Assembly (NCBI GenBank): GCA_021234155.1
Contig: JAJEKV010000011.1
Span: forward strand, 19,360,677 to 19,424,676
DNA from: Isoetes taiwanensis
Lineage: Eukaryota > Streptophyta > Lycopodiopsida > Isoetales > Isoetaceae
DNA length: 64,000 nt
Direction of reading: 5' to 3'
The position numbers were made by a program, and so were the translations under genes. Positions 24,385 through 54,459 of this stretch are shown in pieces (position 1 is the first letter of the stretch; every line of letters begins with the position of its first letter). The notes under the pieces are model-generated. The model saw only the letters and a list, made by a program, of their open reading frames with translations. It had not been told where the DNA came from and did not search any database.

Positions 24385-25480
24385 CATTCCATCGTAGGGA
24401 ATGCAATTCAGAAATTACCCATGGTATCATTGTAAGATTTGGAACATCCTTTCTCTCCAAATTTGGGTGTTGTCGATGCCACATCCTACAAGGAACCAGC
24501 TTTTAAAATGTGCAAATGGTCTACTTTAAGTTAAATAAGGGAATTTCTTGGTTTAAGTTTAAATAAGGGAATTTCTCCGACGCTTGTTAGAGCATGTTAC
24601 TTTGGTTGATACACTTGGTGTATTGTCTGGTGAAAAACAATGGACATAAAGAAGCTACAACTTTACAGGCATTACAGGATGGTTTGCAATAAAATGTGAT
24701 CTCATTCTACTGCCTTTTGATCCACATAAACTTGACATCATTGACAATTCAAATGTCTACGTGGTCATGAAGATAAAATTCGAGGAGTTCTTAATAAAGC
24801 TACCCAAGTTGATAGCCAAATGTATGTATCCAATAACAAATTTATGGATTTTTATATTTTTATGTCCAGATTCCGCTTTGTGCGCCTTTTATGAGAGTGT
24901 ACAGAGCTCTAAAGTGGTCACTTCCAAAGGTTCTCAATGCTCCAGAAGCCATGCACGTTTATATTGGGCAAGTATTTTATGTAAGTTAGATCACAGAATG
25001 TAATTTGTGCAGGTCAAATACAATTGTAGATACAAAGAATGTGGGGAAGCCGATAGAAATTACAATTTTCTCATTTTTGATTTGTCACCAAAGAAGAAGC
25101 ATAGTGATATCTTTTTGTGGCCTATTTAAGATAAGTCACCCCAAACAGTAACACACGCTGATTGCATGCAAACAGTGTAAGGAATCTTTGATCTATCTAC
25201 TTGGAGTCAGCTAACCAAATCAATTGAAGTGGTGACAAAAAACAGGGACTAGAGGACTAACGTGAAAATATAATGGGTGTTGTATTGCGAATAGCTATCT
25301 AGCCCTTACTAAGAAATCTAATATTTCTTGCAGTTCGTTTAACGATAAACCCCTGTGAATGAGCAAGCACTAGGCCCACTGGGAAAGAAAGGAGTTCTTT
25401 GAACTAGAACGTGGAACAGAATGATCTCATGGCAGATTTGAAGGACATTCCGAGGAAGGCTTGTGATCAAAAGCAAAGCT
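24385..25480 (+). pseudogene. EHD-type dynamin-like GTPase pseudogene, copy A (extends left of the duplication)
   Basis: EH-domain-containing (EHD) ATPases remodel endocytic and recycling membranes. Blocks in EHD order: about 24385-24490 with VGNAI and FGTSFLSKFG, then MPHP; 24590 on with EHVTLVDTLGVLSGEKQ, a TAA in place of a Gln codon, RSYNFTGITGWFA and CDLILLPFDPHKLDI; then, one frame over, GHEDKIRGVLNKATQVDSQ; 24891-24967 with LMRVYRALKWSLPKVLNAPE; and 25334-25477 with SFNDKP, then NEQALGPLGK, EFFELER and DLKDIPRKACD. G3 is DTLG instead of DTPG and G4 is NKAT instead of NKAD, so GTP/ATP binding would fail even without the stop. The intron 24968-25333 begins GC, not GT, and joins in frame. 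The first block lies outside the 15-kb repeat, so the breakpoint is in an EHD intron. Confidence 0.88.
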
Positions 25481-26360
25481 TCTTTTTAGCTGTAGTGTGC
25501 ATGGAGCCTCATATGGTTAATTGAAATTGAGCCATGTTTATACACTAACTTATAAGAGAGGTGCAACGGAGACACATTATTTTCAGCAACAAAGAGGCAT
25601 TATTTTCTGCATATTCCTCCTATGTAGTTGGCTTTTTGTCCATTCATATAACCTCCAATGGCCATGCAAAAGACCATTCCATCCTTATCAAAAATAATAT
25701 GATATCGCTAAGCTAATATTCGAACATATAGAATAGCATGCATAGTTTGAAATAGTGTATAGACCTGAACAACCATAATATGTTCCAATGCAAATTATGC
25801 AGAGTGAATTCGATAGAGACTTCAAAAACTACACAAACAATCTATGTTTGACCAATCAAGAATTTGATGCGTGGTCCTCCCTTCTAACGACTCCTACAAA
25901 CAACTCCTAATTGACAATACCAATTGATAGCATGGCTAAAAGAAAAAACCTTTAATTTTTATTTGGCCAATGTAAGCCAATGGTTATTATACAAAATAGC
26001 ATCAAGTAATAATAATATAAGACCCCTTGGAGGAATTTCAAGCTTCATAATCACCTATACAAGCATCAAGAAGTAAAAAATTGGAAAAGAATGGATACGT
26101 ACTATATTCCTTTTGCGAAGTATGAGAGTATACAAAAAAACTACTCCAAGTGGAATACTAAGCATGAGCACAAATGAAGCATTGAAATTATTATTTACAC
26201 GTCTGTGTATAGTTATCACGTTTGTATTATGTCCTCAACCTTCTACTTTCCTTAGAGCTTGAAGATAAATCCTATATTACAATGGGACTTCAATATCCTT
26301 TTTTGTTTTCATGGTATAGCATGGACTAAGTATGTCTCGACCCTAAGAGGTGTAGAGTAG

Positions 26361-26425
26361 AATAGAATAGAATAGAATAGAATAGAATAGAATAGAATAG
26401 AATAGAATAGAATAGAATAGAATAG
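26361..26425. repeat. (AATAG)13 microsatellite, copy A
   Basis: Thirteen uninterrupted AATAG units follow GTAGAGT. The copy-B array has 14 units. The one-unit difference is useful for telling the two copies apart. Confidence 0.95.
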
Positions 26426-26635
26426 ATCAAATATGTATTATATTACCAAGTGTCATGCCTTCCTTTCTATAAATCTTATATTTAGGAGCAATTATAATGT
26501 CAATGTCTACCAAATTGAGAATATAAAAAATTCCATAATCTAACATCATCCCCTTCTCCATTTTACTTCAAAACTTATTAAGATGCTGAATAGTTGTCTA
26601 CAATTGCATGGCTAACTACATAATATTGTATTTAT

Positions 26636-26664
26636 GCCCGGCAACGCCGGGCACCGTTACTAGT
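26636..26664 (+). mobile_element. Candidate Helitron 3' terminus, copy A
   Basis: GCCCGGC (26636-26642), AAC, GCCGGGC (26646-26652) form a perfect 7-bp hairpin, followed seven bases later by CTAG (26660-26663) and a T. Helitrons end in a GC-rich hairpin shortly before CTRR and insert between A and T, so both features fit. The 5' TC end was not found, so the extent is unknown; the EHD scrap upstream might be captured cargo. In copy B (41644-41671) CTAGT is kept but the hairpin is altered. Confidence 0.5.
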
Positions 26665-26832
26665 TTAATATGGTTTCAATTGTTACAATGTTTACATATG
26701 GTTAATATGGTTGTATGGTTTGTATATGAGTGTGGTTTGTATGGTTTTATATGGTTGTATGGTTTGTATATGAGTGTGGTTTGTATGGTTTTATATGGTT
26801 CATATGGTCATATTTGTGGTGTTTGGGGCTAT
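26665..26832. repeat. TATGGTTTGTATATGAG repeat, copy A
   Basis: Two full copies of a ~50-bp unit (GGTTGTATGGTTTGTATATG, AGTGTGGTTTGTATGGTTTTA) with shorter TATGGTT words around them lie just before the DUF7869-like ORF. The copy-B equivalent is at 41673-41848. The hydrophobic, Tyr/Trp-rich frames here are products of the repeat. Confidence 0.8.
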
Positions 26833-26859
26833 ATGGTTTTAATGTGAGCTTTTTCATTC

Positions 26860-29802
26860 AGGGAGCATGTGAGATGAGTAAAATGGAGCCAGGGAATTCC
26901 AAAGGAGGCCATTGCCCTAGGCTCCAATGGAGGAAGATGGGTTGTTTTTTGTTGCACCCTTGCAACCGCATGAGGCAGATTTGCAGAGGGCATAATAACC
27001 GCATTTGATCCATTTGATAGTGTGAATGATGAGAGGTCGGGAGATGAACATCTTGGAGTTGGCATTGTGAAGCTTCTTATCGGGTTGATACTATCATGTC
27101 CCGTGGAAGCTCTAGTGATTGCATTGTGTGCTCGTGGTCTGCCGGAGTCCCAAGCCGCTTGAGATGGCCAATTACATTTATTACACACAAGAATGGTGAT
27201 ACTCTAGAATGCCCCATCAACTACACACCCCAAGGCCCACCCAAGGCCATGTGGAAGATTTGGTGGTCGATGAGCATCCTTTGATCACAAGGAAGAGACG
27301 CTTATGTCTTTCATAAAAGGCGCATAAAGGTGCCCAAGAGGCCTAGAAGTGACAAATATTTAGAAAGGATGGAAAGTATGGCACCAACCAAAGAAAACCC
27401 GAGGCAATTAGGGGACAAGAGTGTTGCAACCTAGATTGCATGTGCTGCATTACAATGTGGATGACCTCGCAAGAGATAAGGTCCCAATACATTGGACGCC
27501 TTCAAAAAGATAGGATTAATTTCATTTACTCCTTGTGTAGGAATTCCAGCTATGATGATGAAAACAGGACTACCGCTATATCAATTGAGGGGAATGAAGG
27601 TATGTATGAGAGCATTGAGATGGATTCTTGGGGTGAGCAAGTCTTCATTTTACGTGATATCGGAGCAAGTTAGAAAAGGGCACACTTTGTTCCAACATGG
27701 TAATGCACTCACTTTGAAACCTAGAGCAAATACTCTAAAGGCCATTGCAGTCCTCGAGAGCTTTGTGAGATACATGTCTCAATCTATGCCCCACAAGTCG
27801 GAAGGTGAACGAGCACGGCAAGTGCGAAGTGGTGCAAAGAGTGTTGCCACAACACTATATCCAAAAGGAGTGCCTTTAAGGAGGTCAACTCCATCCTAGA
27901 AACTACCGGAGGTAGGCCTCTTTCTCAATCACATTTCAGCAAGTTATGGAGCACTCACTTCTGGACGGAGTGTCCTACAACACATGCCATTCTCAAAGTG
28001 CAACACTTGCATTCAACTCAAGGATACACTTGCATCAACCGCAATAGAGAAAGAAAGAATGGCAATTAGGGGAGCAATTTGCAGATCACCAAAGGGACCA
28101 AATATCATGTAGACAGTTGTATTGGCAAAGTGGAGAACATTTTCTCGAGATCTTGTGGGACAAATTTTTGTGTATAATTCATGATAAGATGGACCAACAC
28201 AAGACTTTTCTTGCCAAAGCTAGATCCTTTACCCAAGCGTTGTCAAAACGCCGATGATGAAAGTAAGTCCGGGCGGGTGTATTAACACATGGTCATGGAA
28301 CCGAACATATGGTCATTTTGTGCTTGATCTATGGAGAGATGATCCAAACTTCCATGTGAGCTCTATTTTCGCGCTTGAGAACACTAGAGAAAGGATCGAT
28401 AGAAGGGAGGAGGTATTCCCCTTCAAAGACCCATTTTTGAGGCTTTGATGGATGATCAACCGCTTTGTTACCAAAGGCAGATAAAAAAGCTCACATCCAA
28501 GGTGTCTAGTGAATCAAGGAGGACTTGGGATGATTTCCCCTTACTTGAGAAATCATGCACCGAGGAGCTATGTGTTCAGTTGGACAACCGTTGGAAAGAA
28601 AACAAGAATAGATGGATGTTTGGGGCAATGTCATACTTGACGAAGCCAGGGGAGTATTCAAAGTTGTGAAAGTGGGATTCATGATGGTTGGGCATACGAT
28701 GATGATATAGATGGATTCTTTGGAACTTTCTCCACCAAGCTCAAGAGAGAAAACGTGACCACTCTCCCGAACTAATGGATGTGTTTGAGAGCCGCATTGA
28801 CCCCAACCCAATGGCTTTCTTGATGGATGAGGTTGCAGATTGGAAATCATTTGTAGAAGGATACTTGCTAGATGGCAAGGACCGCTTGACAGACACACAA
28901 AGCCACTTCAATTCAAGTTTTGGGTTAGGGATGGAATACCAATCATGCAATATAAGTGGAGACAGGTGACAAGTTGTGGATGCCCTGCACAAGGTATCGA
29001 AGTTGTGGCAAAGGGGTGTGCCGGGTGAAGTGGGTGCCGCCGGTGAAGTTCTCATTCCTAAAGGGCGCCTAAAACCACTACCTCCCTTCAAGATACCAAA
29101 GACTCTAGCCAACCGGTGAAGGGCATCAAGGATTACATAACGCTTGGGATGATGTTCAAATGGAAAGCACACCTCCACTCTTAAGAAAAAATCAAATGGA
29201 CTCCCCTAATCAAGCACCGGAGAAAGTTGTGACATGCTTAGAACCGAATGCCCATGTGGGAGGGAGCTAAGAGACGGGTTCTGCCGTGAGTCAAGATGGG
29301 AGGGTTCTCAAGGTGCAAGCATCGCCTAAGAATGCTCACTTGGGTCCCAAGTGGTTTGTGGGAAGTAAGGCCCTCAAAGCCGGGTGGTTTGATCTTTCCC
29401 GAGTGGGATCCCTTTGAGGACATCAAGGAAGGATACTTTGTGCTAGTAAGGCCCCGATGATGAGGATCGGCCCAATATGGTTAGGGGTGGCACTCTCGAT
29501 GTGACCACCACTATGCCCCGATGGAGAGGAGTTGCGCCCCCGATTCCAAATTCAATATTGGGAGCCCATTGGGAGGCACAAGAAGGGCAACTTGAAGGAG
29601 CAATACACCGATCGGGCTGGGAGAAGAAGTGGAGGCTAAATTATGTTGACCCCTCAAAGGAGGGAATTGGTGGAGTGTGGTGTGGTATGGTCATATCCAA
29701 GTTCTCACATTGCAAAAAGACAACACACACAAGATCCCAAGAAAGGAGATGGACAAGGCCATGAGCAACCTCCATGCTATATCATTGTATGAGGGTGCAT
29801 AA
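26860..29802 (+). pseudogene. Intronless DUF7869-like transposon ORF, copy A
   Basis: This ~2.9-kb region encodes, in shifting frames, the same ~970-residue protein as copy B. Recognisable parts in order: VKLL and SSSDCIVC; RPRSDKYLERM; C-x-x-D-C near 27425; a block YQLRGMKVCMRALRWILGVS; HGNALTLKPRANTLKAI; SMPHKSEGE; MDQHKTFL near 28195; QLDNRWKENKNRWMFGAMSY near 28580; DDIDGFFGT-like text near 28700; MAFLMDEVADWKSF near 28810; and a C-terminal block ending at ISLYEGA-like text near 29800. From memory of the family, the D..DN..ENKN..D pattern is that of DUF7869 proteins, which are repeat-borne and probably transposase-like. Lesions concentrate at CAG/CTG positions where copy B differs. The function is inferred, not proven. 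Confidence 0.65.
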
Positions 29803-29971
29803 TATTGAGAAGTTTGAAAACTTTCTCAACTAGTGGTTTTGTAAAATTTATGAGGAAAACAAGTAACCCATTCTATGTGTGTCATGTGTAATTCTATTCA
29901 AGCAATCAATTCAGAAATTTCTTTTATGGTGTGTGAGTCCCATTTTCAACCAGTCCCAAAATTCAAGATTT

Positions 29972-29997
29972 GTCCCACTTTTAATTAAATACGACTT
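29972..29997 (-). repeat. Copy of the 25-bp shared block (copy A)
   Basis: GTCCCACTTTTAATTAAATA followed by CGACTT is the reverse complement of 9607-9631 with one extra T. It lies ~170 bp after the DUF7869-like ORF and may mark that element's 3' end. Confidence 0.65.
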
Positions 29998-30859
29998 ATT
30001 CTCTAATGTTTCATCCTTGTTTTACAAAGATGATTAACCGATTTAAACACTAATGCAACAAATGTAAGAGAATATCCTAATGCCTCTCTCGACCTTTACA
30101 ACTTTATGGAATGGACATTCTTCAAAGATTGATAATTGTTTCGCAGATTTTTCTAGTCATTATCTATCTCAAGAACAAGACCAAAGATATTTGTATTTTG
30201 GGATAATGAGGTTTGATAGAAAACCGCTTGCATTGATAAGACAACCTTCATGGTCTAGTCTTAGTGAAGCCCCGCTTTGTTAATTGGAAATCTTCCAAGA
30301 ATACCAGCCACATTTTGGTCCCATGAACCTTCGAAGTTATGCTTGTGAGTATGGTTGTCTTTCCTTTTTCTCTACATTCTCTACGATAGATACCCATTTA
30401 ACTAAGTTGGGTCACTCACACTCACGGGGCAATTATTGGGCATCATCTTATGGGCCCTGCGCAGGCCTCAATTTTATTGGCCGCCTCTAGATGATTGTAT
30501 CCCAAATTTTGTCTCTAGATGATTGTATTCCAAAATTTTGTAGATGTCAAGTTATATGAGCTCTAAGCTGGCATATTTCCATTGGTTATATAATCGGACT
30601 TAAAGTTGCTTCTTGGTTTCTTGAAACTATTTGACTTTCAAAAGAACCGATGATACTATAAGTCCGTAATCTCGCCATTTGACTTTTTACAAAATAAGGA
30701 TATACTAACAAGGTGGATCAAGGAGTGGATATTCTACTTCTTTGATTCTTCATTGTTGCCTTCAATTTGTAAAGATATCCTAGGTACTAGCAAGGTGGAT
30801 CAAGGAGTGGATATTCTACTTTGGATTCTTCATTGTTGCCTTCAATTAGCACTGCTCAA

Positions 30860-31035
30860 AGACACCTAGATGGGTCTTGCCCCCACCACTATGCATTGCC
30901 GATGTGTGTCTTCTTTCACAACAAGGCGTTGAACCCGTGACCTTGAGTATGATAGTTTAAGGTCTTACCACAGGACCCTGAAGAGGATGTAAATCAAGAA
31001 GGTTTACCACAGGACCCTAAAGAGGATGTAAACCA
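30860..31035 (-). mobile_element. tRNA-derived SINE-like fragment, copy A
   Basis: On the minus strand CCTGTGGTAAGACC (A-box-like), some 25 bp of spacer, then GGTCACGGGTTCAACGCC (B-box-like), followed by GGGGGCAAGACCCATC, resemble the head of plant tRNA-derived SINEs. The segment CCACAGGACCCT(G/A)AAGAGG with GATGTAAA is duplicated just upstream. The copy-B equivalent is at 45862-46040. No clear 3' tail or target duplication was seen. Confidence 0.45.
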
Positions 31036-31454
31036 ACAAGGTTACGACTACGAGTGAGTTTCTCGAAAGTATTCTTCTAGAATTGTCCAAATGTTCAAGC
31101 TATTCTATTCATGTTACTAAAGGTAGTGAGAAAGCAAAAATTGTTGTTTATGGAGGAAGATTGGGACTTGAGACCGGATTCTAATACAAAAATGTCTGCC
31201 TCTATGCTGTTTCCTACATGTACAGTCTTGTGTCCTATCGCAACCTTATTTAGAAACCTATCTTTTCTTTTTACCATTTGAGGATGCATCTCGAGCATGA
31301 TGGAATTTATATATGTAACATTTGAATTTTATGATCCCAAATTTGTCACCATGAAAGTTCCAAATTCTAAAGTTAATGAGGATAATATAACATTTTGAGG
31401 AAGGACATGACATTATACCAGGCTCTTTATACTTGATTATGATGTTTTTCATGC

Positions 31455-32545
31455 CAGTGCAATGTTCTTTGGAAGTCCACCGCAAACAGTCCATGGGTCG
31501 TTGTACGCAGTCTTTGTGATGTGGCTATTGGGGAGGAAATTACAATTGCTTATACCTGGACTTGTTGCAAATGTAAGGTTCTTAAAATTAAATCGCTTTA
31601 AAAAATATCTAAAATCATAAACTATTAAGGACTATATGACTTGCCATCAGCTGGTCAATGTTGGGCTAGCCATATATCTTCCCCTTCATCACAAGTAAGT
31701 TAGGGAGCAGCATACATTCTTCGCATCGATCGCTTCTTGTAGAAAGAGAGCACCACATAACCGCAGCCTGTTATTTTGTGCATTTTGCATTCCTTTTTAA
31801 TGCTATTTGATACTTAACTTTATTTTGTACCTTGCAGAGTTCGTGACAGAGGGACCTATGGAGAAAGTACAAGTTCAAATGTCATTGTGAGAGGAGTGCA
31901 GTGGATCGTACCAAGCTATGCAGATATCGGGTGCTCGAGGCAGTTGGCTATCATTATACTGACTCACGAATTCATTCACAGTGTATTTCAATAATTACTT
32001 CGATGGTTTTGCAAAACACCGCGACTCATATGTTGCTTTGCCTATACAATAATTATACGCTATCTAGCATAATATCCACTCCTTATTTGACAGTTTGAGC
32101 ATACATTCTCGTGGAATTAGATAGCATTCATTTACCGGCCCTTATGTGATCTTTGTAACGACTTCTTTCTTAATTCTTTGTTCAACTTACGTGAATTAGC
32201 GTAAGTTTATGCCTTCCGTGAAAGGCTTTGAGCAAATGGGCAAAAAGGTTGAGTATGGATCCCTTTTATTTGCCCATAATGACTAACTCTAACAACTGCA
32301 TTTAGCCTGGATTGAAGATGGGCTTCAAGGTTTAGTTGGTATGTGGAAATGTATGAAAGACAAGATGTACATTCTTTTGATTTATGCAAAGATGACCAAT
32401 TTGGTCCTCTTGCAGGATTGCGGTAAGAACTCGGATAGGAATTATGTTGTCCCACAAATACCTTTCATGCATCGACATGCTTGATGCGATATGGTTCTTG
32501 CAAGCACTTTACCTAATCCATGCAGAATCTAACTTCTAGTTCGTG
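31455..32545 (+). pseudogene. SET-domain protein gene, partial, copy A
   Basis: Same exons as copy B with more damage. About 31457-31575 encodes the end of the SET domain (CDVAIGEEITIAYT); about 31838-31980 encodes RKYKFKCHCERS and a YHYTDSRIHS block; about 32195-32330 and 32405-32540 correspond to the later blocks. Typical changes against copy B are CCACCGCAAACAG for CCACCAGACAG, TTCGTGACAG for TTCAGGACAG and GAATTAGCGTAAG for GAATTAGCAGAAG. These break frames and splice sites at former CAG/CTG positions. Confidence 0.7.
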
Positions 32546-32599
32546 CATGTGGAACATTTCTTCTAATTTTTGTTGAGAACCATTTTCAATCATTTGCTC

Positions 32600-35500
32600 C
32601 GGGCCTCTCATAACAAAGATAATTTTCTATAATCTTCCAATTTGGATGGTAAAAATAGCTTTACTATTGTTTGTGGCCTTGATCTATGGAACAATGTTCC
32701 AAGACCTCATGATGACATTGTCAATACCGAAGTCTCATTACCGACTTTTCAAGTCCGAAAGCATGTGCTTCACATGCCACAATAAGTGCTTAATGACGGT
32801 CTTTAGTTGTGAGTGGACTGCAAATGCTAGCCAAGGCATAAAAATAAACCGGGCTTATGCTACAAAGAGAGGATACCACGATAGAATGCAAGCAACAAAG
32901 TGTCTTCTTAGTTTGTTTTATGCGTTGCAAATGATATTAATTTTCGTGATAAACTTATTGTATAGAGGACACCATAATATGTTTGTTGGTGACATGAGCC
33001 TAGAGGATGTTGTACTTTATTCTACTTTCTATATCTACTGATGTTGCTTTTATGTTTCATTTAAAACTGAATAGGTTGGACAACTTATTTTATCTGCATC
33101 TTGGGTTATTTGGTCTTCATGTTGGTTTGTTGCATAAGATTAGATTACGAATTGTGTTTGAACAAAAATCTCGGGATATTTGGTCTTTATGTTGGTTTAT
33201 CCCAGAGAGAAAAACAAACTTACTTTAGATTTTGCAACTATTGGCGTTAAGAGTCCCATCATGCATATAATTCATGAATGTGGCGAGATCCAGATCTTTT
33301 AGAAGCTTCCAACTGGAAAAGGCTACTTAAGAAAGCCTCTTGGTGTCTTAGCGGAACGCATGGAGGGTTGAGCATTCTACCCTCTTTAGGTTCCTTGTAA
33401 CACCTACAGTAAGACTTTCTGGCACTCTATATATGCAGGAAGTAAAGAACAGTTTTGCAGCTGAAGATTCTCCAATGTTGTTTTTCAAGTAATGTGACTG
33501 TGATCAAGTAATTCAAGGTTCAATGTAAATAAACGCTGATGTTTACGGGATTTAGATAAAGGTGAATTAGTGGCTCTATGCCTTTTGAAAAATGCAACCA
33601 CATAGTGAGAACACAAGAACCTTTTTGTTGTAAGGAAATTGTATGTATCAAGTGTACTAAGCAACGACAAATGCTTCTACAAGTTTTATTATATAGAGTT
33701 TTGAACTATATGAAATTTGAAGACGGAGTGACACATTTTTTTTTATGACATTGTGATAATAACACAATTCTCTATGTGATTATAGAAGTAAATGTGATCT
33801 AATAAGTACTTTGGGTTGAAGGGCTATGGGTTATATGACTATGCAAGTAAATGTGATCTAATGGGTACGCTGGGGCTTGAAGGGCTATGGGTTATGGTGT
33901 ATAGTTGCAAATTATTGTGCCTCGGAAATTCTTTTTATAGTTCTTGATCTAGTTATATTTGGGTATGTAGGGAGCAAAAAAGCATGTTCTAATTTTATAT
34001 GCATATTCTATTCATATGCGGTTGCCTTGGTGAATATGCAAATTGTCTTGGTTTTATGTAGGTTGTCTTGCTATCACTTAATAATATTTCTCTTTTCTTT
34101 AGTTTGGACAACAAGGAGAGGCAGGTGGTTCGTGGCAATGATACTATGAAATGAGACTTTTGAAGCAAATTTTAGAGTATCCACGCTGTCGCCGCCTAGG
34201 ACTTTTTTTTCGTGGATCACCCAAGGCGTCCGATATCATCTACGTACCGTGGAAAAATTCAAGGAAATTCCGGTTGGGTTGTTGGTTATCGCATTTGCAT
34301 CAATTTGAAGACATCGGTGGTGCTTGTTACAAGCGATCAATTATAATTAATGGTTTGACAATTTTCTAATTGTTAAGTATGTTGTCGCAAAATGAAGTAA
34401 ATGATGATTTTTGGACCCATGTAGCATCTATGCATGTCTTTATTAGTAAGAATAGTTTATGCACGCTTGAGTCCCAAATAATAATAGATAGATAGGTAGA
34501 TAGTTGTCTAGATAAGCTACTATATGGTTAGTCGTATTTCTAGACCAAAATAATTATACTTTTCCTCTTGCATTGCTGAAATACTCAAATTATTGTACCA
34601 ACTAAATTCCTAAGTTTAAGTAACCAAACGTGCTTTTGACTAGTTTTTTTGCTAGTAATCATATATTTAGGAAGGATTAGGAAGGATAATTTTGCCTAAT
34701 GCAAAAGCTCCCAACTGTCGATCTATCCTGCTGCCAGCATTTCGCCAGATGCCTATTTTGCATGCTACAAGCCGATTTGGTATGACTTTTCTTAAGGCAC
34801 ATTATAATCGCTCGACATTGGCAAAGATAGCCTACGATTTTGTAGCACCGATTTAAGAGTCCAATTTATTTTTTAAAGTTATTAAGACTATTAACAATGT
34901 TTCTTAATTGTATTTTTGCTAACACAACGCCCCCAAGGCCACTAGGTTCAAGCTATGTAATCACCTTCCTAGCATACTTGTATGATCTTTCATGAATGTC
35001 TTCACCTTGGTCTTCAAGTATCCACTTCATAATCTCTAGGGATGTGTTCTCTTCAAAACAATGGTGTATGTGTCTTTGAGCTCAAATCAACGTGCAGGCA
35101 TGAGTCAATCAATATGTGTCTTGTTTCTTCTATGCTGCCATAGCATGGCAACATACTCATATAAAATCTCATCCATAAATCTGGAAGCTATGTGAAGTTG
35201 GAACATTTTGCAAACAGAATCATTTATAGTAAGATTAAAATAATATCAACAATATCCTTAAGAATAGTACCTCTAGCATTAAATGAAACTTGTCAACTTG
35301 TGACCCGTTGCATTGCAAAACACATACATAAACAAGTGGGTTGATTCCTTTTCTAATCAATTCTTCCTCTCCTCTCTCCTTCCACATTTGTTTATATTTC
35401 TTTTAGACATCCAAAAGCCATAAAAAGATAATGAAGAAGTCAAGTTTTTGCACTCAAGAATGGTTACAAACTAAAAGGGAAATATATTTGGATCGGGATG

Positions 35501-35600
35501 AAGATTTAACAAGGAATTAGATGCGAAAAAAAAGGAATCTAAATCTCAAAATTCAAAGAAGCAAAGCAGAATCAACAAAAGGTGCATTGAGTTCAAGGAA
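32600..35600. other. Noncoding part of copy A
   Basis: AT-rich DNA, nearly identical to 47590-50560, with no recognised coding region. It contains a tandem TTTGGTCTTCATGTTGGTTT / TTTGGTCTTTATGTTGGTTT pair near 33110 and 33180, an AGTAAATGTGATCTAAT pair near 33787 and 33845, and the dispersed ~125-bp repeat at 34155-34285. Confidence 0.6.
34155..34285 (+). repeat. Dispersed ~125-bp repeat, copy 2 of 3
   Basis: This matches 7428-7560 and 49143-49265. It reads CACGCTGTCGCCGCCTAGG where copy B has CACGTTGCTGCCAGCTAGG and the 7.4-kb copy has CACGTTGTAGCCAGCTGGG. Copy B and the distant copy agree against this one, which points to an alteration confined to copy A. Confidence 0.7.
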
Positions 35601-35639
35601 AAGTGATAATAGATGCATGGGAAAACATCGAAGGTTTTA

Positions 35640-36035
35640 GAATTGCGGTTTGGAAACATAAAATGATTAACGTAAAACAAAAATTTCAAGTATGCATGAG
35701 ATCTTAGAGAACGTAGATATGATATGTTTTGTTGGAACAAAAGAACATATGCATGATTTACCGCGAAATAGATGGATTTCATAAGATCTATTCTGCAGAA
35801 GAAACCATCGATTTATACAGTGGAGATAATGGCACCGGGAGTTACTTGTTATTAAAGACACGCCTTTTGTCCTCCGGGTGCCATCGCTTTGTTACTATGC
35901 CACGCAGGCATAAGAAAATATACTAGACCACGATGCTTCATGTGATGACTGCACCTTGAACTTGAGTGATATACCGCATAGCCTGAGAAAAGGGGAAGTC
36001 ACCCTAGTTGGTGACTTTAATAAAGAGAATGTGTA
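35640..36035 (+). pseudogene. LINE endonuclease fragment, copy A
   Basis: The region encodes MHEILENVDMICFVGTKEHM, a QIDGFHKIYS-like block and, after frame changes, GEVTLVGDFN near 36010, the GDFN motif of AP-type (EEP) endonucleases of non-LTR retrotransposons. The copy-B equivalent at 50660-51010 is more intact. Element boundaries are not clear. Confidence 0.65.
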
Positions 36036-36278
36036 AGAAGCAAGCAACTACCTATACATGTTCGCCATGCCAAGATTTTTGCATCCTCCACTTTGATAGC
36101 AAAGAATGCCGCATTAGGATTTTTTTGTTGAAGGACGCCGACTTTTATTCAATCAAAGAGTCAAATACAAGTATAAATGCGTAGACAGAATAAAATCTCA
36201 AATGGATAAGTGAGACCCACCGAAAGTGAAGTTTACCCTCGCCTAAGCATAAGAGTGCACATCCAAAAACCTCTGTAA

Positions 36279-36610: not shown

Positions 36611-36769
36611 TATACCGCCAACCCCTGAATGTCCAATTTTCCTTTTCCTATTCTTTTTGCTTTTTCTTCCTGAATTGATTATCAAAACATAACTTTGAAC
36701 TACGGCATTTAAGCCACTTCACCCTCCAAACATAGAGGGCAACCCTCCGCGGCACATCAATACCTTATT

Positions 36770-38960: not shown

Positions 38961-38969
38961 AAGGGCCCA

Positions 38970-44815: not shown

Positions 44816-44985
44816 TATTGAGAAGTTTGAAAACTTTCTCAACTAGTGGTTTGTAAAATTTATGAGGAAAACAAGTAACCCATTCTATGTGTGTCATGTG
44901 TAATTCTATTCAAGCAATCAATTCAGAAATTTCTTTTATGGTGTGTGAGTCCCATTTTCAGTCCGAGTCCCAAAATTCAAGATTT

Positions 44986-45010
44986 GTCCCACTTTAATTA
45001 AATACGACTT
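44986..45010 (-). repeat. 25-bp shared block (copy B)
   Basis: Exact reverse complement of 9607-9631, located ~170 bp after the end of the DUF7869-like ORF. The same flank (GAGTCCCATTTT) precedes it in both duplicate copies; 9.6 kb has GACTCATTCCATTCCCATTTT in the opposite sense, so similarity extends imperfectly. Confidence 0.7.
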
Positions 45011-45861
45011 ATTCTCTAATGTTTCATCCTTGTTTTTACAGCATGATTAACTGATTTAAACACTAATGCAACAACAGAAGAGAATATCCTAATGCCTCTC
45101 TCGACCTTTACAACTTTATGGAATGGACATTCTTCAAAGATTGGATAATTGTTTCTGCATTTTTCTAGTCATTATCTATCTCGAAGAACAAGACCAAAGA
45201 TATTTGTATTTTGGGATAATGAGGTTTGATAGAAAACCGTTTGCATTGATAAGACAACCTTCATGGTCTAGTCTTAGTGAAGCCTGCTTGTTAATTGGAA
45301 ATCTTCCAAGAATACCAGCCACATTTTGGTCCCATGAACCTTCAGAAGTTATGCTTGTGAGTATGGTTGTCTTTCCGTTTTTCTCTACATTCTCTACAGA
45401 TAGATACCCATTTAACTAAGTTGGGTCACTCACACTCACTGGGGCAATTATTGGGCATCACTCTTATGGGCCTGTGCCTCAATTTTATTGGCCGTCTCTA
45501 GATGATTGTATCCCAGCTTGTCTCTAGATGATTGTATTCCAGCTTTTGTAGATGTCAAGTTATATGAGCTCTGTTGGCATATTTCCATTGGTTATATACT
45601 GGACGAAAGTTGCTTCTTGGTTTCTTGAAACTATTTGACTTTCGAAAAGAACTGGATGATACTATAAGTCCAGAATCTCAGTTACTTGACTCTTTACAAA
45701 ATAAGGATATACTAACAAGGTGGATCAAGGAGTGGATATTCTACTTCTTGATTCTTCATTGTTGCCTTCAATTTGTAAAGATATCCTAGGTACTAGCAAG
45801 GTGGATCAAGGAGTGGATATTCTACTTCGTGATTCTTCATTGTTGCCTTCAATTAGCATCT

Positions 45862-46040
45862 GTTCAGCACACCTAGATGGGTCTTGCCCCCACCACTATG
45901 CATTGCTGATGTGTGTCTTCTTTCACAACAAGGCGTTGAACCCGTGACCTTGAGTATGATAGTTTAAGGTCTTACCACAGGACCCTGAAGAGGATGTAAA
46001 TCAAGAAGGTTTACCACAGGACCCTAAAGAGGATGTAAAC
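45862..46040 (-). mobile_element. tRNA-derived SINE-like fragment, copy B
   Basis: Duplicate of 30860-31035, with the same A-box-like TGTGGTAAGACC and B-box-like GGGTTCAACGCC on the minus strand. Confidence 0.45.
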
Positions 46041-46464
46041 CAACAAGGTTACGACTACGAGTGAGTTTCTCGAAAGTATTCTTCTAGAATTGTCCAAATG
46101 TTCAAGCTATTCTATTCATGTTACTAAAGGTAGTGAGAAAGCAAAAATTGTTGTTTATGGAGGAAGATTGGGACTTGAGACCGGATTCTAATACAAAAAT
46201 GTCTGCCTCTATGCTGTTTCCTACATGTACAGTCTTGTGTCCTATCGCAACCTTATTTAGAAACCTATCTTTTCTTTTTACCATTTGAGGATGCATCTCG
46301 AGCATGATGGAATTTATATATGTAACATTTGAATTTTATGATCCCAAATTTGTCACCATGAAAGTTCCAAATTCTAAAGTTAATGAGGATAATATAACAT
46401 TTTGAGGAAGGACATGACATTATACCAGGCTCTTTATACTTGATTATGATGTTTTTCATGCCAG

Positions 46465-47552
46465 GCAATGTTCTTGGAAGTCCACCAGACAGTCCATGGG
46501 TCGTTGTACGCAGTCTTTGTGATGTGGCTATTGGGGAGGAAATTACAATTGCTTATACGGACTTGTTGCAACAGAAGGTTCTTAAAATTAAATCTGTTTC
46601 TAAAAAATATCTAAAATCATAAACTATTAAGGACTATATGACTTGCCATCGCTGGTCAATGTTCAACTGCGCCATATATCTTCCCCTTCATCACAAGTAA
46701 GTTAGGGAGCAGTACATTCTTCGCATCGTCACTTCTTGTAGAAAGAGAGCACCACATAACCGCAGCCTGTTATTTGTGCAGCTTGCATTCCTTTTTAATG
46801 CTATTTGGATACTTAACTTTATTTTGTACCTTGCAGAGTTCAGGACAGAGGGACCTATGGAGAAAGTACAAGTTCAAATGTCATTGTGAGAGGAGTGCAG
46901 GGATCGTACCAAGCTATGCAGATACTGTGCTCGAGGCAGCTGGCTATCATTATACAGACTCACGAATTCATTCACAGGTATTTCAATAATTACTTCGATG
47001 GTTTTTGCAAAACACTGCGACTCATATGTTGCTTTGCCTATACAATAATTATACAGTCTAGCATAATATCCACTCCTTATTTGACAGTTTGAGCATACAT
47101 TCTGTGGAATTAGATAGCATTCATTTACCGTCCTTATGTGATCTTTGTACGACTTCTTTCTTAATTCTTTGTTCAACTTACAGGAATTAGCAGAAGTTTA
47201 TGCCTTCCAGGAAAGGCTTGAGCAGCTGGCAGAAAAGGTTGAGTATGGATCCCTTTTATTTGCCCATAATGACGACTCTAACAACTGTACTAGCCTGATT
47301 GAAGATGGGCTTCAAGGTTTAGTTGGTATGTGGAAATGTATGAAAGACAAGATGTACATTCTTTGATTTATGCAGCATGACCAATTTGGTCCTCTTGCAG
47401 GATTGCAGGTAAGAACTCTGGATAGGAATTATGTTGTCCCACAAATACCTTTCATGCATCAGACATGCTTGGATGCGTATATGGTTCTTGCAAGCACTTA
47501 CCTAATCCATGCAGAACGAACTTCTAGTTCAGGCATGTGGAACATTTCTTCT
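46465..47552 (+). pseudogene. SET-domain protein gene (SDG41/SMYD-like), partial, copy B
   Basis: Exon 46465-46577 (phase 2, 37 whole codons) encodes NVLGSPPDSPWVVVRSLCDV then AIGEEITIAYTDLLQQK, the C-terminal SET motif (GEEITIxYxDLL). Exon 46837-46977 (47 codons) continues in frame with RDLWRKYKFKCHCERSAG, a post-SET-like CxC, and ends at CAG|GTATTT. Exon 47184 to about 47310 starts ELAEVYAFQERLEQLAEKVE. Short blocks with FGPLAGLQ near 47385 and CLDAYMVLASTYLIHAER near 47470-47520 match the helical C-terminal region of plant SET-domain group proteins. Such proteins methylate lysines on histones or other proteins. The N-terminal SET half (with NHSCxPN) and MYND finger were not found, so the locus is partial or its 5' exons are unrecognisable. 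Confidence 0.72.
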
Positions 47553-47589
47553 AATTTTTGTTGAGAACCATTTTCAATCATTTGCTCCG

Positions 47590-50560
47590 CTCTCTCATAA
47601 CAGCATAATTTTCTATAATCTTCCAATTTGGATGGTAAAAATAGCTTTACTATTGTTTGTGGCCTTGATCTATGGAACAATGTTCCAAGACCTCATGATG
47701 ACATTGTCAATACTGAGTCTCTCATTACCTGACTTTTCAAGTCTCCCGAGCATGTGCTTCACATGCCACAATAAGTGCTTAATGACGGTCTTTAGTTGTG
47801 AGTGGACTGCAGCAGTCAAGGCATAAAAATAAACTGGGCTTATGCTACAAAGAGAGGATACCACAGATAGAATGCAAGCAACAAAGTGTCTTCTTAGTTT
47901 GTTTTGCGTTGCAAATGATATTAATTTTCGTGATAAACTTATTGTATAGAGGACACCATAATATGTTTGTTGGTGACATGAGCCTAGAGGATGTTGTACT
48001 TTATTCTACTTTCTATATCTACTGATGTTGCTTTTATGTTTCATTTAAAACTGAATAGGTTGGACAACTTATTTTATCTGCATCTTGGGTTATTTGGTCT
48101 TCATGTTGGTTTGTTGCATAAGATTAGATTACGAATTGTGTTTGAACAAAAATCTCGGGATATTTGGTCTTTATGTTGGTTTATCCCAGAGAGAAAAACA
48201 AACTTACTTTAGATTTTGCAACTATTGGCGTTAAGAGTCCCATCATGCATATAATTCATGAATGTGGCGAGATCCAGATCTTTTAGAAGCTTCCAACTGG
48301 AAAAGGCTACTTAAGAAAGCCTCTTGGTGTCTTAGCGGAACGCATGGAGGGTTGAGCATTCTACCCTCTTTAGGTTCCTTGTAACACCCTCTGATGAGAC
48401 TTTCTCGGCACTCTATATATCGCGAGAAGTAAAGAAACAGTTTTCGGTGAAGATTCTCCAATGTTGTTTTTCAAGTAATGTGACTGTGATCAAGTAATTC
48501 AAGGTTCAATGTAAATAAACGCTGATGTTTACGGGATTTAGATAAAGGTGAATTAGTGGCTCTATGCCTTTTGAAAAATGCAACCACATAGTGAGAACAC
48601 AAGAACCTTTTTGTTGTAAGGAAATTGTATGTATCAAGTGTACTAAGCAACGACAAATGCTTCTACAAGTTTTATTATATAGAGTTTTGAACTATATGAA
48701 ATTTGAAGACGGAGTGACACATTTTTTTTTATGACATTGTGATAATAACACAATTCTCTATGTGATTATAGAAGTAAATGTGATCTAATAAGTACTTTGG
48801 GTTGAAGGGCTATGGGTTATATGACTATGCAAGTAAATGTGATCTAATGGGTACGCTGGCTTGAAGGGCTATGGGTTATGGTGTATAGTTGCAAATTATT
48901 GTGCCTACTGGAAATTCTTTTTATAGTTACTGATCTAGTTATATTTGGGTATGTAGGGAGCAAAAAAAGCATGTTCTACTTATATGCATATTCTATTCAT
49001 ATGCAGTTTGCCTTGGTGAATATGCAAATTGTCTTGGTTTTTATGTAGGTTGTCTTGCTATCACGAATAATATTTCTCTTTTTCTTTAGTTTGGACAACA
49101 AGGAGAGGCAGGGTTCGTGGCAATGATACTATGAAATGAGACTTTGAAGCAATTTTAGAGTATCCACGTTGCTGCCAGCTAGGACTTTTGTTCACGTGGA
49201 TCACCTACAAGCGTCCGATATCATCTACAGCTGTGAAAATTCAAGGAAATTCCAGTTGGGTTGTTGGTTATCGTACGGCATCAATTTGAAGACATCAGTG
49301 GTGCTTGTTACAAGCTGATCAATTATAATTAATGGTTTGACAATTTTCTAATTGTTAAGTATGTTGCTGCAAACAGAGCAGTGATGATTCTTTGGACCCA
49401 TGTAGCATCTATGCATGTCTTTATTAGTAAGAATAGTTTGCGTACGCTTGAGTCCCAAATAATAGATAGATAGGTAGATAGTTGTCTAGATAAGCTACTA
49501 TATGGTTAGTCGTATTTCTAGACCAAAATAATTATACTTTTCCTCTTGCATTGCTGAAATACTCAAATTATTGTACCAACTAAATTCCTAAGCGAAGTAA
49601 CCAAACGTGCTTTTGACTAGTTTTTTTTTTGCTAGTAATCATATATTTAGGAAGGATTAGGAAGGATAATTTTGCCTAATGCAAAAGCTCCCAACTGTCG
49701 ATCTATCCTGCTGCCAGCATTTCGCCAGATGCCTATTTTGCATGCTACAAGCCGATTTGGTATGACTTTTCTTAAGGCACATTATACTGCCTGACATTGC
49801 AGCATAGCCTACGATTTTGTAGCACCCGATTTAAGAGTCCAATTTACGTTAAAGTTATTAAGACTATTAACAATGTTTCTTAATTGTATTTTGCTAACAC
49901 AACGCCCCCAAGGCCACTAGGTTCGTTACAGAATCACCTTTCCTAGCATACTTGTATGATCTTTCATGAATGTCTTCACCTTGGTCTTCAAGTATCCACT
50001 TCATAATCTCTAGGGATGTGTTCTCTTCAAAACAATGGTGTATGTGTCTTTGAGCTCAAATCAACGTGCAGGCATGAGTCAATCAATATGTGTCTTGCTC
50101 TTCTATGCTGCCATAGCATGGCAACATACTCATATAAAATCTCATCCATAAATCTGAAGCTATGTGAAGTTGGAACATTTTGCAAACAGAATCATTTATA
50201 GTAAGATTAAAATAATATCAACAATATCCTTAAGAATAGTACCTCTAGCATTAAATGAAACTTGTCAACTTGTGACCCGTTGCATTGCAAAACACATACA
50301 TAAACAAGTGGGTTGATTCCTTTTCTAATCAATTCTTCCTCTCCGCTCTCTCCTTCCACATTTGTTTATATTTCTTTAGACATCCAGCAGGCCATAAAAA
50401 AAGATACTGAAGAAGCTGTTTTCAGACTCTGAAGAATGGTTACAAACTAAAAGGGAAATATATTTGGATCGATGAAGATTTAACAAGGAATTAGATGCGA
50501 GAAAAAAAGGACGAAATCTCAAAATTCAAAGAAGCAAAGCAGAATCAACAAAAGGTGCAT
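47590..50560. other. Noncoding part of copy B
   Basis: Duplicate of 32600-35600 and AT-rich. It includes the third copy of the dispersed ~125-bp repeat at 49143-49265. No coding region is recognised. Confidence 0.6.
49143..49265 (+). repeat. Dispersed ~125-bp repeat, copy 3 of 3
   Basis: Agrees with the distant copy at 7428-7560 at the CACGTTG, GCCAGCT and CACGTGGA words. An open frame runs FEAILEYPRCCQLGLL and continues past VKIQGNSSWVVGY. Confidence 0.7.
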
Positions 50561-50585
50561 TGAGTTCAAGGAAAAGTGATAATAG

Positions 50586-51010
50586 ATGCATGGGAAAACA
50601 TCGAAGCTCTTAGAATTGCAGTTTGGAAACATAAACAGATTAACAGAAACAAAAATTTCAAGTATGCATGAGATCTTAGAGAACGTAGATATGATATGTT
50701 TTGTTGGAACAAAAGAACATATGCATGATTTACCGCAAATAGATGGATTTCATAAGATCTATTCGGTAAGAAACCATCGATTTATACAGGGAGATAATGG
50801 CACCGGGGGAGTTACTTGTTATGTAAGACACGCCTTTTGTCCTCTGGTACAGGCCATCAGTTTGTTACTATGCCACGAGGCATAAGAAAATATACTAGAC
50901 CACAGATGCTTCATGTGATGACCTGTACCTTGAACTTGAGCAGGATATACTGCAGTTCCAGAAAAAGGGGGAAGTCACCCTAGTTGGTGACTTTAACAGT
51001 AGAACAGGTA
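50586..51010 (+). pseudogene. LINE endonuclease fragment, copy B
   Basis: Encodes MHEILENVDMICFVGTKEHM, DLPQIDGFHKIYSVRN and GGVTCYVRHAFC, then in another frame DASCDDLYLELEQDILQF and GEVTLVGDFNSRTG at about 50965-51008. Order and motifs match the EEP endonuclease of non-LTR retrotransposons (GDFNxRTG). The corresponding stretch of copy A is altered at nearly every CAG and CTG. The reverse transcriptase part is absent. Confidence 0.75.
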
Positions 51011-51216
51011 AGAAGCAAGCAACTACCTATACATGTTCGCTCATGCCAAGTTTTTGCATCCTCCACTTTGATAGCAGTGAATGCTGCATTAGGATTTTTT
51101 TTTTGTTGAAGGACGTCAGACTTTATTCAATCAAAGAGTCAAATACAAGTATAAATGCAGAGACAGGAATAAAATCTCAGCGGATAAGCGGAGACCCACC
51201 GAGTGAAGCGACCTGC

Positions 51217-51618
51217 CTAAGCATAAGAGTGCACATCCAAAAACTCCTCAAAAATCAATCGCCTCTTGCGAGGGGCAAGTGAAGAACAATGATACGACTT
51301 TACAATGTAACCTTGAGCTTCTTGGAAAACACGATTATCTGCCACATCCAGACCTTTGAAGATTACCAATCTTCCTCTTTTCCAGATAGACCAAAGCAAC
51401 AACATAGCTGATAGATATTGCCAGCCCTCTCCCCTTTGGCGATGATCTCCTCTTGCTTGTTTTTGACAATACACCGTCCATTGCCAAAATTTATGAAATA
51501 GTGTCTTGGAAATGGACAAGAGGTTAGCTTCAAGGTCTGGTACATGCAGCACATTCTTAAGGAAGAGCCCGCCTTGCGGCAATCCAAGATTTATACTGCC
51601 AACTCCTGCAATGTCCAA
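51217..51618 (-). pseudogene. Copia-like protease-region fragment, copy B
   Basis: One open minus-strand frame begins MDIAGVGSINLGLPQGG and continues FLKNVLHVPDLEANLLSISK, as in the linker after the Ty1/copia protease. The remainder diverges. No catalytic DSG/DTG was found. It is opposite in orientation to the LINE scrap beside it. Confidence 0.6.
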
Positions 51619-51754
51619 TTTTCCTTTTCCTATTCTTGCTTTTTCTTCCTTGAATTGATTATCAAAACATAACTTTGAACTACGATTTAAGCCACTTCAC
51701 CCTCCAGCCATAGAGGGCAACCCTCCGTGCACATCACCTTATTATTTTTTTTGT

Positions 51755-52040
51755 TTCTTACGTGCGCGAATCGTATTGTTTTGTGTACGCGAAAGTTGGA
51801 AAACAAAACAACTTTCGCATACGAAAACAGTATAATTCGCGAAAACAACTTTCGCATACGCAAAACAGTATAATTCGCACACGCGAAAAAAAAATCGCCT
51901 TTTTGCGTACGCGATTTTCACTGTTTTGCATATGTGAAATAGTGAAACCGTGTACGGGAAATGCAAATTTCAAATTTGTGCCGCGGTTTTATTAAAACCG
52001 CGTCGAGTACGTGGTTTAGAAGATTTCGCGTACGCAACAT
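51755..52040. repeat. TTCGCRTACG / CGTACGCGAA inverted-repeat cluster, copy B
   Basis: At least eight words of the type TTCGCATACG, TACGCGAAA or GCGTACGC occur in both orientations within ~280 bp, along with GCGGTTTTATTAAAACCGC (8-bp arms GCGGTTTT/AAAACCGC, 52023-52041 region). On RNA or single-stranded DNA this could fold extensively. It is possibly a MITE-like foldback element. Confidence 0.7.
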
Positions 52041-52266
52041 TTTTTCGGTCGGTGAGAGAAAAATACGTGAAATACGTTTTAAACAATAAAAAACGTATTT
52101 TTTACCTTTATATATCAAAAATTTTAATTTCATATGTACGGAACATATCCCTGGTATAAACATCTCCACAATCCGTAGTGGACCAGGAGCTACGACGTCA
52201 AACTAGCAAACAGGACCATGCTGCCTCAGTACCTGCTGCTACTAGTACCTTGAGCTTGCATATTAT

Positions 52267-52672
52267 AGGGGTTGCAGAGGCAGAAACTAATCCTCATTCA
52301 GCTGTGTAGGGGTTGCAAAGGCAGAAACTGATGCTCATTCAGTTGTGGATGAGGCTTTGCATTTTTTCATTGACATCATGCATGTGAAGGTTGCTGAGAG
52401 CGTCCTGGACATCCTTTGGTTCAGTTTCATGATGCTCTCAGCTACCTACATATTCTTCGGCCTGGTAACCATATCAAAGGGACTAGTTTTCAGTACAAGA
52501 GGACCTCTCTCCTCTTCAATTGTGTAACCATAAGGAAGAGCTGTGCAAGGTCAAGGTCAGGGCAACCCGCCTGCAAAAGAAATGGACAGTGTACAGGGGA
52601 GATGCAACAATCATTCTAGATCAATGGCCTTCCAAGAGATGCAACAATCATTCTAGATCAATGGCCTTCCAA
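52267..52672. repeat. Two short direct duplications
   Basis: GGGGTTGCA(G/A)AGGCAGAAACT with ATGCTCATTCAG(C/T)TGTG occurs twice in 52267-52345. GATGCAACAATCATTCTAGA with TCAATGGCCTTCCA occurs twice in 52603-52672. Both lie in sequence whose copy-A equivalent is also duplicated, so they pre-date the 15-kb event. Confidence 0.75.
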
Positions 52673-52799
52673 TCCTTGGACGGGCTATGTCTAGATAATT
52701 TAACGAGCAAAAAATCATCATTAGCATTAGCATTATCTTTTTTTTCTTTCTTTATACTTTTTGGGTTTCTATACTTTTGTTTTTTGTGTCCTATGGCAA

Positions 52800-52838
52800 A
52801 TTTGGTCTTTGTGGACGTTAAAAATCTATCTATCTATC
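52800..52838 (+). mobile_element. Retroposon-like 3' end, copy B
   Basis: AAATTTGGTCTTTGTGGACG, TTAAAAA and (TCTA)3TC. The shared core TTGGTCTNGTGGACG-TAAAAA recurs at 60570-60600 before a TATTC tail and at 37855-37893. Similar 3' cores with different short tandem tails fit a LINE/SINE family. Confidence 0.5.
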
Positions 52839-53904
52839 ATGCCAAAAGGCAGGAAGGGAAAGGCAGGGCAGGCATGATTGGAAAAGAGAAACCATGGGAA
52901 TGAAAGGTAAGGAAACATGGCAGGAAAGCATTCTTCATCTCCATTAGAATATGCCACCTTATCGACTTGCTCAGAGTGCATTTGTTGATGATTGTGATCA
53001 AAGACTTGCAAGGCTGTAACGACTGGTATGCCGACCATGTAAAGGACCATGGTCGTGGCAATAAATTTGCTATTACAAAGGTTGGGTATTGTACGGTAAG
53101 TGAACGATTATGCCGTTATATGTTCTAATATACTTTCAACGTGCATGATTATGGAGGTAGAATGTATGCCTGGAGGGATATATTAGGCATACTTTATATA
53201 TTATGTAAGAAGGATTAACATGTGCATTCACATTGTTGTTTTCTTTAGTAAACCCTCATTTTCAATTAATCTAAGCATAAACATTCTATTTACTTCTCAA
53301 AAAGCCATGCATAAACGGGCAAAAACATAGCAATTTTAAAAACGTCACTTGCATGATCGATATGCGCTCTTTTCAAGTAATATAGCTAATGAATCCTCCT
53401 TTCTAGTAACATAACTAATTATGAGTGTGACAGTTGTTTCCCTTTATTTTTACAAGTCAGTGCAAGGACCCACAGAAGGCATATTAGGAGATATTGATTT
53501 CATAATAAGTATTGACAACGCGTCTCATTGTGTCTATCTAGCTGTCTAGGTGGCTGTATATAGCCTACAAAGCTGGCCGAGAAAGGGTAAAAGCTCATGT
53601 TCTTTATCCATGAGAGGACCATAACAACGTGAGAAGCTGAACACGAAGAATCATCGAAAGCATGTTGCAGCAAAGGTAGGGTTGACACGACTTTTAGAAA
53701 TGTAGTTAAATTTGTATGAAATTCATGTGATTTTAGAATTGAATTGACATAGACATAGATTACTAAGAGTAATTTGTTGCAAGGAATAAACTAGTGTGGG
53801 GGAGAATCTACTTAGATCATATCATGCAAAGGTAAAGAGAAAATGTCAAATAAAGAATACAAGTGACCATTGTCTTCCTATGAAGCAAGGATTGAAGGGC
53901 CCAG

Positions 53905-54459
53905 ATGAAGCCAGGTCCTCTTTATAGCCGTGGATCACGCGTGCTCAGAGTCCACCACTGCCGCCGGTAATCATGTTCGAACTGGCAGCAGCCCGTAACT
54001 TTACCGCAGAGACCCCACGCCGGCCACCGCCCATAGCCTGTCCTCTCCACTGTCCATGGTGCGCGTATTCTTTTGTTGTGAAGCGAAGGCACTGCTGTTT
54101 AACAACAGTTGAGGCTGCTTATGCACTCCATTTCAATCGACCGAGGTCGGCTTCCAAATTTTTTGCTCAGGTTAGTTTTTCTTTCAATTGGGTTTTTTTC
54201 TGCCGTTTCGTACCTCTCGTTTGATGGACTATATTTATCTTGGTTCTTATTTCGTAGACAATGCTATACTTAAGCCTTGCCACCAACTATTTTTGGGTTT
54301 AATCTCTGGTTTGTGTAATCGGCAAACCGTGTACATTGAGCTGGATAATCGGGTGGATGAGGCTCTGCGCTAAATTAGTCAACGATTTTTGTTGCTTAGG
54401 GTTAGTTTGGCTTCGTGGATCCTTGTAGCCTTGCTCCCCCTGCTGATCTGTTTGGAAAA
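53905..54459 (+). promoter_or_regulatory. Promoter and first noncoding exon(s) of the Pti1-like kinase gene
   Basis: TCTTTATAG near 53919-53927 is a TATA-like box, followed by a GC-rich leader. An ATG at 53973 opens MFELAAARNFTAETP but is not in line with the kinase. A donor TTGGAAAA|GTAAGTATT at 54460 and an acceptor AAATTTCAG ending at 54962 define a 5'-UTR intron of 503 nt; an earlier intron may run from GCTCAG|GTTAG near 54169 to GTAG at 54258. The last leader exon carries a six-codon upstream ORF (54966-54986), ending 40 nt before the main ATG. The first 518 bp of this region are within duplication copy B. Confidence 0.5.

Follow-up and report, generated by a model that had tools for sequence, protein, structure and literature searches.

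Are the differences between the two copies of a 15-kb direct tandem repeat in the genome of Isoetes taiwanensis mutations, or were they written into the sequence when it was read and assembled? The repeat lies in a window of 64,000 nucleotides (G000:C919:19360677-19424676) from an assembly of 1,658,258,908 bases in 1,110 contigs, and its two copies, A and B, were delimited by BLAST and global alignment. Most of the differences between them are very probably sequencing and consensus artefacts at modified cytosines, chiefly in the CHG context (H being A, C or T). We infer both the methylation of these cytosines and the part played by polishing.

24502 to 39499, forward strand: copy A of the direct tandem repeat; after about 25.5 kb it is the more altered copy at CAG/CTG.
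39500 to 39506, forward strand: the seven bases separating A from B, the repeat junction.
39507 to 54422, forward strand: copy B; about its first 1 kb is altered, and where tested (46134 to 49630) it sides with third copies at most differing columns.

By BLAST the copies are 92.36% identical, with 376 gap openings and 625 mismatches. Their global alignment contains 15,333 columns, of which 1,159 differ and are grouped into 446 clusters. Single substitutions account for 44 of the clusters, and there are 752 gap columns against 407 mismatches. An earlier note on this DNA had pointed to identical stretches of several hundred bases and to indels too common for deamination alone to suffice, and both observations are borne out by the alignment. 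The four examples that it quoted are all present (A 27000, CGCAT/TGCAG; A 33457; A 35975; A 39329), and identical runs of 557, 484 and 410 bases begin at A 30901, 32921 and 33462, respectively.

30901 to 31457, forward strand: the longest run of identity (557 bases), in which 8 CAG/CTG and 8 CG stand unaltered in A and B alike.

The positions of the clusters were compared with 1,000 rotations of the same positions. CAG/CTG is touched by 219 of the 446 clusters (rotation mean 71.7, maximum 95), CG by 231 (mean 77.2, maximum 198) and any CHG/CG by 307 (mean 120.6, maximum 154), which upholds the claim of the earlier note that the differences concentrate at CAG/CTG and CG. The control CAT/ATG is depleted (84 clusters against a mean of 139.5). 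Four other controls are raised mildly, by roughly a quarter to two fifths: GAC/GTC (86 against 68.6), GCA/TGC (140 against 98.0), AAA/TTT (206 against 163.2) and CAC/GTG (113 against 88.8). When the rotations were repeated, the means hardly changed, and the maxima were 102 (CG) and 299 (any CHG/CG); the high maxima (198 and 299) are taken to be near-zero rotations. Tabulating the aligned copies by trinucleotide, as the note had proposed, gives the same picture: 65% of the 277 CAG/CTG in B and 42% of the 166 in A stand at a difference, compared with an average of 14%. The 139 clusters away from CHG/CG include 71 homopolymer-length changes, a general type of long-read error, and 9 isolated substitutions. 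A second classification, using a context of two bases rather than one column, yields 293 CHG/CG clusters and 72 homopolymer changes; the rest are 32 further single-letter indels, 13 substitutions and 36 clusters of other kinds.

To polarise the differences, five other loci of the same genome (L001 to L005), each covering part of the repeat unit, served as referees; together they cover 24502-26664 and 31127-34650 in A coordinates, and in these parts they carry the intact motif. The 103 differing columns of 31127-32810 divide, for L004, into 98 that match B, 2 that match A and 3 that match neither; for L005 the corresponding counts are 72, 18 and 13. At the 114 columns of 32829-34650, L004 agrees with B at 89, with A at 17 and with neither at 8. 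The balance is reversed at the 5′ end, where, at 158 differing columns, A is matched by L001, L002 and L003 at 98, 97 and 106, and B at 46, 46 and 38. As the agreement of the referees shifts between A and B by region, the deviating copy switches along the unit. The switch is also visible in which copy keeps the motif: beyond the first 972 bases CAG/CTG is kept in A at 34 clusters and in B at 137.

24502 to 25473, forward strand: the first part of A, with alterations in both copies; CAG/CTG is kept in A at 10 clusters and in B at 3.

Sites at which two other copies agree allow the altered motif to be identified directly. Agreement of B with L004 was used to test A, and agreement of L001 with L002 to test both A and B; the results were pooled, so that 5′ sites were tested twice. 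Of 113 tests of isolated CAG/CTG sites (no CG within 4 bases), 62 show an alteration (55%); the corresponding figures are 7 of 20 for CCG/CGG (35%) and 15 of 83 for CG lacking a neighbouring CAG/CTG (18%). The control trinucleotides, taken away from CAG/CTG and CG, are altered in 0–3% of tests (GAC/GTC 0/72, CAT/ATG 3/291, CAA/TTG 11/335, CAC/GTG 3/96). The target is mainly CAG/CTG, then CCG/CGG, with CG hit much less. CAG/CTG, followed by CCG and then CHH, is the order of CHG methylation in plants.

The products of the alteration are short and recurrent. Among 137 oriented A/B events, CAG became CGG 19 times, CG 12 times, CGT 10 times and CGA 5 times, and CAGC became CAAAG seven times. CG at a difference is thus often a product of misreading and not only a target. 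The earlier note had listed CG among the sites of concentration; CG is indeed enriched, but it is often the outcome, and as a target it falls well behind CAG/CTG. We also considered, and rejected, a preference of the caller for CG where a cytosine is modified. The number of CAG-loss events carrying CG rises from 28 to 130 of 178, against 68.6 for random letters; when the letters actually observed are shuffled, however, 127.7 events carry CG, and the gain is explained by composition.

Misreading and mutation make different predictions for sites shared by several copies, which were followed over the first 2.2 kb of the unit. Of 32 CAG/CTG sites common to L001 and L002, 13 are altered in A, 20 in B and 12 in both, and all 12 doubly hit sites became different strings in A and B. 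Alteration of both copies is found at 51 of 1,938 other trinucleotide positions, and at 21 of the 1,607 that have no neighbouring CHG/CG. The third copy L003 is hit at 8 of the same 32 motifs. Mutations arising independently would seldom strike one and the same motif.

Other repeat pairs show what divergence in this genome otherwise looks like. Between B and L004, 36 of 43 clusters are single substitutions and 2 are pure indels, whereas over the same stretch single substitutions make up 3 of 47 clusters between A and B. Single substitutions amount to 21 of 31 clusters for L001/L002, 22 of 39 for L001/L003, 17 of 31 for L002/L003 and 36 of 81 for L004/L005. They form 28 of 42 clusters for L006/L007 on contig C1072 and 14/26, 14/16, 22/29 and 14/21 in the four aligned pieces of L008/L009 on contig C944. 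Real divergence in this genome, as between B and L004, consists mostly of single substitutions, unlike the differences between A and B.

A second locus with the same signature was found on contig C784, as a 9-kb direct repeat.

C784, 27853 to 36948 and 38959 to 47969 (L012 to L016): direct repeat with the error signature of A/B; the second copy stops exactly at the contig end.

Of its 397 clusters 43 are single substitutions, and the clusters touch CAG/CTG 124 times against a rotated mean of 52.9, CHG/CG 239 times against 115.5 and CAT/ATG 96 times against 139.5. For the pair L010/L011 on the same contig, single substitutions make up 15 of 171 clusters.

Within the window itself, tandem repeats of about 2 kb occupy 19278-23312. 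Their pairs 19278/21365 and 20489/22449 are intermediate, with single substitutions at 9 of 30 and 8 of 21 clusters, and their differences are partly of the CHG/CG type, which is touched by 17 of the 30 clusters in the first pair and by 17 of the 21 in the second.

The differences are unevenly spread along the unit. Counted per 500 columns, CHG/CG-type clusters track the number of CAG/CTG and CG sites (Spearman 0.72) and are less closely related to the other indels (Spearman 0.29, p=0.11). One stretch of A lacks CHG/CG-type differences altogether, and from its sequence it looks like a candidate unmethylated, unpolished stretch.

25489 to 26580, forward strand: stretch of A without CHG/CG-type difference from B, containing 6 CAG/CTG and 11 CG in A; it has 6 single-letter indels and 2 other changes.

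In three further stretches (30901-31457, 32921-33404 and 33462-33871) A and B do not differ at all; these may be free of methylation or may have been polished.

The published account of the Isoetes taiwanensis v1 assembly, in its main text (PMC8566536), describes 1658.30 Mb as 204 scaffolds plus 909 contigs, basecalling of R9.4.1 reads by flip-flop Guppy 3.1, assembly with miniasm, polishing with racon and pilon, Bionano scaffolding and gap filling with LR_Gapcloser. The word ‘methylation’ is absent from that main text. If the present assembly is Isoetes taiwanensis v1, the window derives from unamplified genomic DNA read with R9.4.1 and Guppy 3.1. Among the 8 of 209 papers listed by a literature search for Isoetes together with CHG methylation, none deals with the subject as judged by title and the start of the abstract, which does not deny that such a paper exists.

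The artefact reading is preferred because of the context specificity established by third copies, the fact that a given motif ended up differently in A and B, the small number of ordinary substitutions, the second locus and, if the assembly is Isoetes taiwanensis v1, the matching technology. According to this reading, native plant DNA would have been read on R9.4.1 nanopores by a basecaller whose training did not include CHG methylation of plants. The current would be shifted by a modified cytosine, most often one in CAG/CTG and more rarely one in CCG/CGG or CG, and the caller would write another short string; such an error, being systematic, would be retained by long-read consensus. Short-read polishing may then mainly repair one of two near-identical copies, with multi-mapping reads settling on the better copy and starving the other. 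The predicted outcome is a copy A that is more corrupt over most of its length and a first kilobase that is corrupt in both copies, more so in B. Twelve matches to the DNA_methylase family were found in the genome by a search that was not aimed at a CHG methylase; judged by its motifs, one locus looks MET1-like and another DRM-like.

Comparable errors are known from other systems. The errors at Dcm motifs in nanopore consensus sequences (Wick et al., 2019; PMC6591954) are alike in that they cluster at methylated-cytosine motifs, arise with a default model untrained on them and persist in the consensus; the motif there is the bacterial CCAGG/CCTGG, whereas here it is the plant CAG/CTG and CCG/CGG, with multi-base replacements. 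Untrained modification types likewise lead to systematic errors in native DNA in the work of Chiou et al. (2023; PMC10687267), which differs in dealing with bacterial isolates and in correcting them by amplification or from relatives. In plants, a loss of nanopore accuracy with mixed-species basecallers has been described, and methylation differences between lineages were named as a likely cause (Ferguson et al., 2022; PMC9749173); that study differs in offering no CHG analysis, the term occurring 0 times in its main text.

Several observations weigh against the artefact reading or restrict it. Proximity to CHG/CG is not special by itself, as it is touched by 20 of 43 B-L004 clusters compared with 34 of 47 A-B clusters. 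Neither copy is consistently good (L004 equals A at 17 of 114 columns in 32829-34650, and L001 equals B at 46 of 158 at the 5′ end), and the referees are imperfect, L003 differing from L001 and L002 at 8 of 32 CAG/CTG sites. The pairs on C1072 and C944 differ mostly by ordinary substitutions, indicating that the artefact is not in every repeat copy. CAGC to CAAAG is absent at C784 (0, against 7 in A/B), and a preference for writing CG beyond composition is unsupported. Finally, 68 of the 139 clusters off CHG/CG are not homopolymer changes. The proposal of the earlier note, read or consensus error at modified cytosines, is well supported by the CAG/CTG alterations, the 12 differently hit motifs and C784, but with 139 of 446 clusters off CHG/CG, 71 of them homopolymer-length changes, modified cytosine is not the explanation for all.

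Since few differences lie outside the error classes, the true divergence of A and B is probably small, and the copies are probably almost identical in truth; any real changes among the CHG/CG clusters or the 68 unexplained ones would be indistinguishable from errors by sequence alone.

Whether the tandem duplication itself is real is a separate point. With a probability that we place somewhat short of even, the tandem is an assembly artefact in which overlapping ends of two contigs, or two haplotypes, were set side by side, and the pattern would then be the same error in two assemblies of one sequence. The few differences outside the error classes fit such an overlap, as do the optical-map scaffolding described in the main text of PMC8566536 and the poor first kilobase of B, which resembles a possible contig end. 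The left edge of A (24502) lies inside a longer repeat that crosses this edge in C1048, C1051 and C963, so there is no natural unit boundary there. Against an overlap, the window contains no N and hence no gap mark at the junction, and a recent real tandem duplication would look alike. The junction sequence, the DLE-1 sites and the flank searches are compatible with both a real duplication and a contig overlap. When 53900-55400 was searched to cover the flank to the right of B, the only matches within 54423-55115 were 49 bases long; 55116-55398 has a 94% match in C960.

A consensus of generally low quality, for example a fill from few raw reads with no involvement of base modification, is improbable. 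Homopolymer and other small indels are present as it would predict, and the published gap filling relied on long reads according to the main text of PMC8566536. Such a consensus does not explain why CAG/CTG is altered in 55% of site tests and the four controls in 0–3%, and identical runs of 410–557 bases are unlike raw-read error. The CHG/CG-type clusters, moreover, follow site density more than they follow the other indels.

It is very unlikely that the differences are real mutations made by a process aimed at CHG-methylated sites, be it error-prone repair of excised 5-methylcytosine or a hypermutation not previously known, that rewrote the copies of a young duplication by short recurrent changes. 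The context matches plant CHG methylation, and one copy keeps CAG/CTG more often across long blocks. Such a process would have to repeat multi-base changes in identical form (CAGC to CAAAG, seven times) and to hit 12 motifs of a single 2.2-kb stretch in both copies with different results. Ordinary substitutions are scarce (9 clusters outside CHG/CG), the repeat pairs on C1072 and C944 evolve mostly by substitution, and the process is unneeded as the sequencing technology predicts the pattern. A milder idea, kept apart from this estimate, is that older nanopore assemblies of plants may preserve, in repeat copies that were poorly polished, a legible record of CHG methylation, in which islands such as 25489-26580 would be unmethylated. 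Methylcytosine deamination or C-to-T change resembling repeat-induced point mutation (RIP) in an old duplication has equally little probability: C/T or G/A changes do occur at CG and CHG sites, but C-to-T and G-to-A do not dominate, single substitutions are few and gap columns exceed mismatches.

The coding content of the unit offers some further support for misreading. An exon resembling a SET domain is open in B and broken in A.

46398 to 46622, forward strand: SET-like exon of copy B; an open frame of 74 amino acids in the same frame as in L004, matching Pfam SET with E=0.039, below the cut-off.
31391 to 31660, forward strand: the counterpart in copy A, with stops in all three frames and with indels beside a CAG, at a CG and within a run of T.
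51220 to 51696, reverse strand: Copia-type Pol beta-barrel fragment (PF22936, Pfam) in copy B.
43230 to 43938, forward strand: DUF7869 fragments of copy B; they lie in separate frames and neither reaches the Pfam cut-off.

At the indels of the exon in A, L004 and L005 have the length of B. The SET match is below the cut-off and the unit may hold just a gene fragment, so this comparison counts only as supporting evidence. A Pfam search of the open frames of the unit (7 + 1 + 6 proteins) gave only the Copia Pol_BBD match above the cut-off, with SET, DUF7869 and PGAP1_3rd below, and a 158-residue open frame of copy B (42076-42552) has no Pfam match at E 0.1. DUF7869 exceeds the cut-off only in L004 (541-1248, 72.2 bits), upstream of the part matching the unit of the window. 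The earlier note had tied the CHG and CG contexts to plant transposons; the unit, however, is more than a transposon, being a mixed segment that includes the Copia-like fragment, the SET-like exon and the DUF7869 pieces.

Two shorter arrays were noted elsewhere in the window. Positions 881-2016 contain 25.8 copies of a 44-bp unit that is partly self-complementary (inverted matches), and positions 61117-61565 a G-rich array with a period of 105 bp and 4.2 copies, the unit starting GGGGTAGTCAGGGTTAGTA.

In all likelihood, the pattern of A/B differences is technical in origin and not a biological feature. In this assembly, duplicates may therefore appear 8–12% diverged and frame-broken though they are probably near-identical. 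Affected copies would give wrong dates for duplications, wrong pseudogene calls, and wrong indel spectra and CpG/CHG statistics, and the CAG/CTG signature offers a simple screen for such copies.

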